Positions 14,993-17,000 of a DNA stretch of 63,044 nucleotides are shown one piece after another. A model generated the notes under the pieces. It made no database searches, had not been told where the DNA came from, and saw only the letters and a list, made by a program, of their open reading frames with translations. Origin of the DNA: Planctomycetaceae bacterium (lineage in GTDB: Bacteria; Planctomycetota; Planctomycetia; Pirellulales; Pirellulaceae); assembly GCA_002724245.1 (NCBI GenBank), contig PBOG01000184.1, forward strand, positions 1-63,044, given 5' to 3'. Numbering within the stretch: the first letter of the stretch is position 1; each line of letters opens with the position of its first letter. Made by a program: the position numbers and the translations under genes.

Positions 14993-15841
14993 TCAACACA
15001 ATGTCAGTAGTTGATTGTCGATGAGTCGGGTTTGTCCGATGTAAGCGGCAATCAATACGATTGTTGCGTCTTCAACCTGGGCGACTTCTTCGAGTGTCTT
15101 GCTGTCGGCGATGGCGATGTAGTCGATTCTGGAAATACCATGTGTGGATAGGATCTTCTGCATTGCGTTCTTGATCGCTTTGGCATCTCTTTCGCCGCTT
15201 GAAACAAGTTGTTGTGCGTGGTTCAGACTGTGTGAAATAACCTGAGCCTGTGTCCGCTGACTTGTTGACAGGATTTGGTTGCGAGAACTCAAAGCCAGTC
15301 CATCGGGGTCGCGAACGGTTGGGCAACAACGAATCTGAATTGGCAGATTCAAGTCGCGGACCATGTGTTGAACGACCAGCGTTTGTTGGTAATCTTTGTT
15401 TCCAAAGTAAGCGATGTCGGCAGGCGCCATGTGGAGAAATTTGAGAACGACCGTGGCAACTCCGCGGAAATGCCCAGGCCGGTGTTTTCCTTCCAGGCGT
15501 GCCGCGACGGCAGGCGGATCAATCGTTGTCGTGAAGCCGTCTGGATAAACTTCTTGGGTGGCGGGTGCGAAGATCAGGTCTACACCAAGTTGTTCGAGCT
15601 GTGCGCAATCTGCAGTTGTATTGCGGGGGTAACGCTCAAGGTCATCGTCTGCGTCGAATTGTGTGGGGTTGACGAAAATTGTGGCAACGACGTAGTCACA
15701 CTCAAGCTTTGCTGCTCTTACGAGACTCAAGTGTCCTTCGTGTAACGCACCCATTGTGAGAACCAGGCCAATCTGTTTTCCAGCGGCGCGGGCGGGAGCC
15801 AGAAGTGACCGCACTTCTTGAGTCTGGTGAACAACAGGCAT
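14993..15841 (-). CDS. panC: Pantothenate synthetase
   Basis: 282 residues from the ATG at 15841; the longer frame begins with TTG. Family motifs are TMGALHEGHLSLV (ATP-binding HxGH), FVNPTQFDADDDLERYPR, RPGHFRGVATVV, FGNKDYQQ and LALSSRN (the KMSKS-like loop). It condenses pantoate with beta-alanine using ATP in the route to CoA. The folK fusion is 124 bp upstream and lgt is 154 bp downstream on the same strand. Confidence 0.97.
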   Translation of the reverse strand: MPVVHQTQEVRSLLAPARAAGKQIGLVLTMGALHEGHLSLVRAAKLECDYVVATIFVNPTQFDADDDLERYPRNTTADCAQLEQLGVDLIFAPATQEVYPDGFTTTIDPPAVAARLEGKHRPGHFRGVATVVLKFLHMAPADIAYFGNKDYQQTLVVQHMVRDLNLPIQIRCCPTVRDPDGLALSSRNQILSTSQRTQAQVISHSLNHAQQLVSSGERDAKAIKNAMQKILSTHGISRIDYIAIADSKTLEEVAQVEDATIVLIAAYIGQTRLIDNQLLTLC

Positions 15842-15965: not shown

Positions 15966-17000
15966 TCAATTTGCTGGGTGAGTGTTGGAGTTCAAGCACT
16001 CAATTACGGCAGCCAATTCCTCAATGGTTCGTGGGTTATCAGCATGCATGCGTAGAACAGGGCAAGGTGCCGGTTTGGAAACGATCTTATCCAGTTCAGC
16101 ACTGAAGCGTGCCTCCCGAGTCATCACACGGTCAGTATTTGGCAGGCTGTTTTGCTGTTCTGCATGCCGGTCAGAATTGGGCGTTGTCAGGTAAATCAAT
16201 AGTTTCGGCTGCGTTATTTTGGGTTTGAGCTCGTTCCAGCGCTGCTGAAATATCTGTAACTCTGGCGCGGAAAGATCCATTCTGCAGGCGGCCAGTACCT
16301 CGTTTGTCCAAAAGTCTGCCACTGTAAATTGTTCACGAGTTTTACCAGTTTGGCTGGCTACCAACTCATGCCGGTGGTCGAGAAATTCTAGCCATCTAGC
16401 CAGTGTCTGGCCAGCCTGATGTAAAGTGGCGTTTTGTGCATCGGTCAGGAGGTTCAGATCTAATTGTTCGGCCACTGTGTGGGCGAATTGCTGGGTGCGG
16501 TTTGCGTCAGATCCCGTGAAAGCCAGGTAGTTCACAGGGGAATTGAGATTGTCCAACAGTCTGGAGAGGCTCCAGCCGAGGAGTGGATGTTCGAGCTGGG
16601 GAGCGACCTCCGTCGCCGGTTGCAACACAAATCGACGGTATATCATTCGGGGATGAGGAAGCTGCAGCAACGAATTGTGAACGATCATTTGGTCGACCAT
16701 AAGCAGATCGATGTCGATCGTCCTCGCTCCCCACCGTTGGTTTCGAACACGTCCCAGAAGGTGTTCGACTTGCTGAGCGCACTCCAGCAGAGATTCCGGT
16801 GTCCGGTCTGTTTCGATCATGACGACTTCGTTGAGGAAACGGTCCTGACCGGTTGGGCCACCAACTGGGTTTGTTGTGATTGGCCGGCTCCGAGCGAGGA
16901 ACCGTATGTTTTCATGCGCGAGAAGCTGCTTTACTGCTTCGTCTAGATGATGTTGGCGGTTACCGAGGTTCGAACCGAGTGCAATCAAACACTTAGGCAT
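15966..17000 (-). CDS. folK: HPPK (folK) fused to a degenerate deoxynucleoside-kinase-like domain
   Basis: 344 residues from the ATG at 17000, where the canonical MPKCLIALGSNLGNR begins; upstream in-frame starts are less natural. Residues 1-160 are 6-hydroxymethyl-7,8-dihydropterin pyrophosphokinase: GSNLGNR, PVGGPTGQDRFLNEV, RWGARTIDIDLLM and LPHPRM, complete and probably active in folate synthesis. Residues about 168-344 resemble bacterial dAdo/dGuo kinases (VADFWTNEVLAA, a QIFQQRWNELKP helix, QPKLLIYLTTP), but the P-loop position reads LAFTGSDANRTQQ with no Lys-Ser/Thr pair, so kinase activity is doubtful. The second domain is assigned by pattern only. Confidence 0.9.
   Translation of the reverse strand: MPKCLIALGSNLGNRQHHLDEAVKQLLAHENIRFLARSRPITTNPVGGPTGQDRFLNEVVMIETDRTPESLLECAQQVEHLLGRVRNQRWGARTIDIDLLMVDQMIVHNSLLQLPHPRMIYRRFVLQPATEVAPQLEHPLLGWSLSRLLDNLNSPVNYLAFTGSDANRTQQFAHTVAEQLDLNLLTDAQNATLHQAGQTLARWLEFLDHRHELVASQTGKTREQFTVADFWTNEVLAACRMDLSAPELQIFQQRWNELKPKITQPKLLIYLTTPNSDRHAEQQNSLPNTDRVMTREARFSAELDKIVSKPAPCPVLRMHADNPRTIEELAAVIECLNSNTHPAN

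Follow-up and report, generated by a model that had tools for sequence, protein, structure and literature searches.

The window, by which we mean the whole 63,044-nucleotide stretch of DNA that was analysed, carries on its minus strand an open reading frame (ATG at 17000, stop ending at 15966) in which an HPPK is joined to a tail resembling deoxynucleoside kinases (dNKs). The features of this gene and of its downstream neighbour are as follows, where A3 denotes an alignment of intact fused dNKs.

15966..17000, minus strand: fusion of HPPK (FolK) and a P-loop-less dNK-like domain, 344 residues plus stop
16545..17000, minus strand: HPPK domain, residues 1–152, motifs intact (PF01288, alignment with solved HPPKs, Foldseek)
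16530..16580, minus strand: junction helix region LGWSLSRLLDNLNSPVN, residues 141–157, conserved in most tail-bearing relatives
15969..16544, minus strand: degenerate dNK-fold domain, residues 153–344 (hhalign 99.1 against A3; match to 6gzo)
16488..16514, minus strand: former P-loop GSDANRTQQ, residues 163–171, with no GK[ST], aligned to GxxxxGK[ST] of the relatives L013, L128 and L041
16440..16442, minus strand: D187, at the site of the conserved Glu of intact members (E47 of A3)
16371..16373, minus strand: R210, a kept Arg of the dNK domain, invariant in alignment A4
16308..16316, minus strand: D229-F230-W231, ADFW here and SDY/SDFW in intact members, invariant in A4
16101..16184, minus strand: former lid, residues 273–300, Arg lost, low model confidence
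15990..16061, minus strand: last strand and C-terminal helix, residues 314–337, retained by many shrunken tails too
14993..15841, minus strand: panC (pantoate-beta-alanine ligase; PF02569, E 2.6e-103), the next gene downstream and a conserved neighbour

The PF01288 profile matches residues 6–134 over positions 2–116 of its 116 (E 2e-35, 122.1 bits against a cut-off of 25.7), TIGR01498 scores 118.7 bits against a cut-off of 54.1, and the best Foldseek match of the domain is 5etq_A. Residues R84, W90, R93, D96, D98, H116 and R122 are invariant in alignments A1 and A4, and we take their counterparts in E. coli HPPK to be R82, W89, R92, D95, D97, H115 and R121. The two profile matches and the invariant positions bear out the preliminary description of this DNA, which had placed HPPK motifs in the first part of the protein, and the domain is probably an active HPPK. 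In a profile search of the source genome (estimated completeness 98.8%), the fusion gene was the sole PF01288 match, and neither a second HPPK nor a dNK was found elsewhere; a DHPS-family match (PF00809, 289 bits) is also present.

The resemblance of the remainder to dNKs, also claimed in the preliminary description, escapes Pfam and emerges from profile–profile comparison. With the window tail alone, no Pfam family matched at E ≤ 1, and the suggested check against PF01712 gave no match at the fusion locus at E ≤ 10 in the genome search. NCBIfam and phmmer against the PDB returned nothing usable for the tail alone, HPPK-DHPS chains appearing at E 0.09–0.23; a FAD-binding match at E 0.066 was ignored. 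A contig scan of genomes with the tail alone as query found no relative, and no dNK model matched at E ≤ 1 in L004, which keeps Walker A, or in L003, which has a GKR loop. By profile–profile comparison, the window tail and the full-length tails of its relatives are homologous to dNK domains: the window tail alone aligns with A3 at hhalign 99.1, and a profile of 17 P-loop-less tails aligns with the intact fused dNKs at 100 (E 2e-46) and with bona fide dNKs at 97.4 (E 9.4e-12). These scores show common descent of the window tail and the dNK domains. Two members of the same order, L013 and L021, pass the PF01712 cut-off of 27 bits with 36.2 and 49.7 bits; higher scores with this profile, 84–106 bits, come from four HPPK-dNK fusions found outside the order.

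The AF2 model of the window protein has a mean pLDDT of 89.1 and a pTM of 0.86, and was built from an alignment of 23 relatives, mostly intact, which may bias it towards the intact fold. The tail is predicted as an alpha/beta domain that is weakest at the former lid, with pLDDT of 65 at residues 271–280 and 50 at residues 281–290. Among the 50 structure matches listed for the model, 49 are HPPK chains, and the sole other is NadR (6gzo; Z 16.3, 164 residues aligned, rmsd 2.7, residues 155–339); other kinases may rank lower than the matches listed, and that no dNK is among these is not evidence against a dNK fold. Structure prediction, also suggested beforehand, thus delivered a P-loop-kinase-like tail with NadR, not a dNK, as its one listed non-HPPK match, a fold that is compatible with the dNK resemblance. 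For the intact relative L217 (pLDDT 92.5), the best non-HPPK structural match is the Giardia deoxyadenosine kinase 8puu (Z 21.9, 192 residues aligned, rmsd 2.4), with Drosophila dNK at Z 20.4 and dCK at Z 20.3. Because of the PF01712 matches (two within the order, four outside) and the deoxyadenosine kinase fold of L217, the label dAdo/dGuo kinase fits the ancestral domain. A NadR ancestry, raised by 6gzo and by AAA_28, was set aside in view of the dNK matches of L013, L021, L217 and the fusions outside the order. Most of the HPPK matches to the window model reach residue 343–344, hinting that the extreme C-terminus may fold back onto the HPPK domain; model confidence at this end is low, however (pLDDT 65), and few of the matches listed for L217 do the same.

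The ATP site is lost in the window protein. GSDANRTQQ stands where relatives have GxxxxGK[ST], just as first described; D187 replaces the Glu after strand 2, presumably the catalytic base in dNKs; and the lid arginines R149, R153 and R155 of A3 are Glu, Gln and Ser. Judged by these residues, the tail is incapable of conventional ATP binding, and its kinase activity is probably absent. The loss of the ATP-site residues, taken with the alignment to A3, upholds the earlier idea that a folate enzyme is joined to a pseudo-kinase, one derived from a dNK. An isolated mutation or a sequencing error was rejected as the cause, since L002, from the same genus, is also P-loop-less and has a different loop sequence. 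We consider it highly improbable that the domain is an active kinase using a non-canonical phosphate loop: an Asp does occupy the Glu site and the Asp of the SDF-like motif is present, but neither the Walker A Lys nor the lid Arg remains, and the segments that held them are the least conserved between the two species of the genus. In family f8, all eight sampled members (L019, L165–L171) have a GVPGSGAPEVA-like loop in place of Walker A, with the Lys lost and most glycines remaining.

The order in question is Pirellulales, as named records of these genes indicate: an intact-domain query gave 25 such loci, 24 of them Planctomycetota by name and many Pirellulales. L193 (Pirellulales) has the same tail as L128 of family f17. 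A contig labelled Candidatus Nealsonbacteria (L194, JABMRB010000481.1) carries a Pirellulales-type HPPK-dNK fusion and is probably mis-binned. A match was found in 58 of the 60 genomes searched, the source genome included, and the 58 proteins, at 234–389 residues, are longer than HPPK alone. In this sample, picked regardless of P-loop state, GxxxxGK[ST] is present in eight genes and missing from 50, the window's own among them, so P-loop loss is widespread among the relatives and not a lone mutation. Homologues with a normal P-loop, envisaged earlier as a sign that this gene was a lone mutant, do exist as a minority (8 of 58 here, and 31 of 120 in the intact-enriched set described below). A dNK above the PF01712 cut-off is absent from 55 of the 60 genomes, the source genome included, which cautions against naming the tail after its intact relatives; in the other five it is an intact fusion (two) or a stand-alone dNK (three). 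The stand-alone dNKs (121–126 bits) lie in G025, G029 and G031, genomes of the window's family that also hold the fused gene. Second, more distant HPPK-like matches accompany the fused one in G010, G023 and G028, in frames of 363, 176 and 176 residues.

A set of 120 loci from the order, enriched for intact members because the best-scoring matches were taken first, contains 31 genes with Walker A, 86 without and three from which the tail is absent. Both Walker states occur within each of the families f1, f2, f3, f14, f17 and f19. This six-family count assumes neither regain nor transfer between families, and is safer than the HPPK tree, which is poorly supported (stars on 14 of 125 inner branches) and whose 20 Walker A state changes are not for close reading. 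Among the 116 tails of at least 60 residues, 18 have Walker A, the Glu, the Asp and at least two of the three lid Arg, 13 more have Walker A, and 85 have none. The full set is confined to three families (f17, 13 of 22 tails; f3, 3 of 5; f9, 2 of 2) and is absent from all 39 tails that belong to the window's own family. Twelve of the 13 partial tails lack the Glu (ten have Asp instead), and eleven of these lack the lid as well; the thirteenth, L152, has a disrupted second half. With the Glu gone from 12 of 13 tails that still have Walker A, P-loop loss was often not the first step.

Across the order, the genes form a graded series: (i) the intact fusion, (ii) Walker A without the Glu, (iii) a full-length tail without P-loop, (iv) a shrunken tail and (v) deletion. 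Short tails can be aligned to the junction helix, strand 1, the PKLLVxL strand, the GPxLxL strand and the last helix, and the catalytic middle is missing. Of 19 short tails (17 from the order and two class-level), 11 outscore all of the 380 shuffled decoys made, 282 of which received a score, and eight do not, six of these being from the order. The two class-level tails, L109 and L122 (family f21, same class, other order), follow HPPK with about 90–100 residues and look like a minimal core by eye; at 7.3 and 6.7 bits against 9.9 for the best decoy, they are not claimed as such. A C-terminal motif, composed after viewing the sequences, occurs in 51 of the 85 P-loop-less tails, against a mean of 1.9 and a maximum of 6 in shuffles.

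R210 and D229 lie on what is presumably the nucleoside side of the former active site, and R210 and D229-F230-W231 are present both in the window protein and in L002. Because these residues remain, the main rival explanation for the window protein is a nucleoside or nucleotide sensor, in which ATP binding and chemistry have been lost and the (deoxy)nucleoside pocket tunes HPPK to purine or deoxynucleoside supply. Purifying selection on P-loop-less tails, described below, is in keeping with such a role, and the Arg and the Asp occur together in 16 of the 85 P-loop-less tails. In the other 69, however, one or both are missing, and the aligned shrunken tails are without most of the segment that bears them. 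We therefore regard a sensor as unlikely, and the "regulator sensing nucleotides" of the preliminary description is not established for a domain that retains R210 and D229 but has lost Walker A, the Glu and the lid Arg.

P-loop-less tails are under purifying selection in three genera, with dN/dS of 0.12–0.49 in 15 close pairs. In g59, the six closest pairs (among L221–L224) give 0.19–0.26 for the tail and 0.06–0.11 for HPPK, and of the 22 other, more distant pairs, 17 lie at 0.22–0.50 and five are inestimable. The corresponding values for tail and HPPK are 0.12–0.34 and 0.07–0.13 in g19 (six pairs), 0.30–0.49 and 0.10–0.16 in g217 (three pairs), and 0.26 and 0.22 in an intact pair from f17. 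For the window gene and L002, with synonymous sites near saturation, they are 0.25 and 0.17. Tail values exceed those of HPPK by a factor of about two to four. A further genus, g248, is weakly constrained: of its 36 pairs 15 are inestimable, and 10 of the remaining 21 lie at 0.52–1.00, mostly near saturation.

Between the window protein and L002, the segments of the former P-loop (residues 161–180, 25% identical) and the lid (residues 281–300, 15%) are the lowest of all full 20-residue segments. Identity reaches 70% at the junction and first strand (residues 141–160) and 60% in the ADFW and last-strand segments, and is 35% both in the last-helix segment (residues 321–340) and in that of the PKLLIYL strand (residues 261–280). 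In g59 (four species), invariance over the last 35 residues is 80–85%, as in HPPK, and in g19 the last-helix segment stands at 80%. Going by these values, constraint has disappeared from the ATP-handling parts and persists on the last strand and helix, g59 and g19 showing this best. The conservation also bears on whether the tail is a functionless relic that decays and persists since deletions are slow. Such a relic would suit the shrinkage, the high divergence, the three tail losses and the weak constraint in g248. Yet a single stop codon could remove the tail and 117 of the 120 order loci retain one (that of L190 being cut by the contig end), tail dN/dS is well below 1 in the 15 close pairs from three genera, and the last 35 residues in g59 are conserved like HPPK. 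We thus find it quite unlikely that the tail has no function.

Seven loci with too little flank were left out; among the 113 order loci with 400 bases of flank or more, panC lies downstream on the same strand in 87 and was not found there in 26. The tail has been lost from L159 and L177, where panC directly follows HPPK. In L164 (G280, family f18), a 440-residue open frame runs from HPPK straight into PanC and has no dNK domain, a possible HPPK-PanC fusion. The preliminary description had offered a docking domain as one role for the tail, a possibility compatible with the evidence. More specifically, the tail might dock or scaffold a different enzyme encoded in the folate/pantothenate operon, PanC for instance, as the adjacency in 87 loci and the single frame of L164 could indicate. 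Neighbourhood by itself is no proof of contact, though; 26 loci are without panC at this place, and L159 and L177 have panC without a dNK domain, so we judge this role very unlikely.

In L100 (G089), L192:157-1387 (G223) and L191:292-1388 (G101), all outside the order, HPPK and dNK are encoded by separate adjacent genes, which overlap by four bases in L191. The separate dNKs of these three loci retain the P-loop and the Glu, and G206 has two adjacent matches of the same kind. Such pairs of separate genes are the likely forerunner of the fusion. Intact fused genes outside the order were found in G169, G189, G161, G151 and G067; by eye, panC adjoins the fusion in L041, L042, L043 and L047, and not in L044. 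In the last of these (L044:602-1459, G151), the fusion is adjoined, again by eye, by an aminodeoxychorismate-lyase-like aminotransferase, possibly another folate gene.

We propose, as the probable explanation, that the protein is a working HPPK with a dead ancestral fused dNK, the core of which has been preserved as a structural module. Neighbouring genes for HPPK and dNK would have merged into a single bifunctional gene, in most cases upstream of panC, before the order diversified, and the kinase would then have been lost repeatedly within Pirellulales. Some members would represent a state in which Walker A is still present and the Glu, usually with the lid Arg, is gone; in most the P-loop would have been lost as well, and in some lineages the domain would then have shrunk, apparently to the central strands and the C-terminal helix. 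The remnant of the dNK sheet may pack on HPPK or hold it together, contributing to stability or oligomerisation. If the remnant supports HPPK in this way, the catalytic parts would be dispensable and the core would not, and the tail has most likely been retained because HPPK grew dependent on the fused domain's core. The tail is missing in three order loci, so it is not needed everywhere. A broader version is that a dNK became a dead structural part at least six independent times in one order, with a tendency towards one shared minimal core (strands 1, 4 and 5 plus the last helix) that HPPK now depends on, and with living species as intermediates from separate neighbouring genes through to deletion; this we advance tentatively, as possible rather than probable.

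Pseudo-enzymes are usually viewed as end products, whereas here a single gene position would span the path from active kinase to structural remnant. Since each step has living representatives, the questions of which parts of a P-loop kinase can be spared, in which order they are lost and why a dead partner is retained become open to direct study. HPPK fusions are known as a kind, in HPPK-DHPS and DHNA-HPPK; within the portion of the open-licence PMC literature covered, which is part of long result lists, no HPPK-dNK fusion, dNK pseudo-enzyme or repeatedly dead, retained dNK partner was found named, and the part of PMC1971073 that was seen names no dNK fusion.

Compared with known systems, the window protein resembles stand-alone HPPK/FolK (PF01288, TIGR01498) in its match over residues 6–134 and in the conserved positions, but the solved stand-alone HPPKs are single domains of 152–172 residues, whereas here about 190 residues lie beyond the HPPK domain. 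Like the solved HPPK-DHPS and DHNA-HPPK bifunctional enzymes, it has HPPK fused to a partner; theirs is another folate enzyme, and here the partner is a kinase-derived domain with no ATP site. The ribosylnicotinamide kinase domain of NadR (6gzo) is a structural match to the window tail among the matches listed, yet identity is 6%, and L013, L021 and the outside fusions are dNK by sequence and L217 by fold. With the dNK family (PF01712; dAdo/dGuo kinases, DmdNK, dCK) the tail is homologous, through its intact fused relatives and, for the P-loop-less tails as a group, directly; it differs from that family in having no Walker A, an Asp for the Glu and no lid Arg, and in lying below Pfam detection. 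Closest in architecture are the intact HPPK-dNK fusions (L041–L044 and L047 outside the order, and members of families f17, f3 and f9 within it), which have the identical domain order and, unlike the window protein, keep the P-loop, the Glu and the lid.
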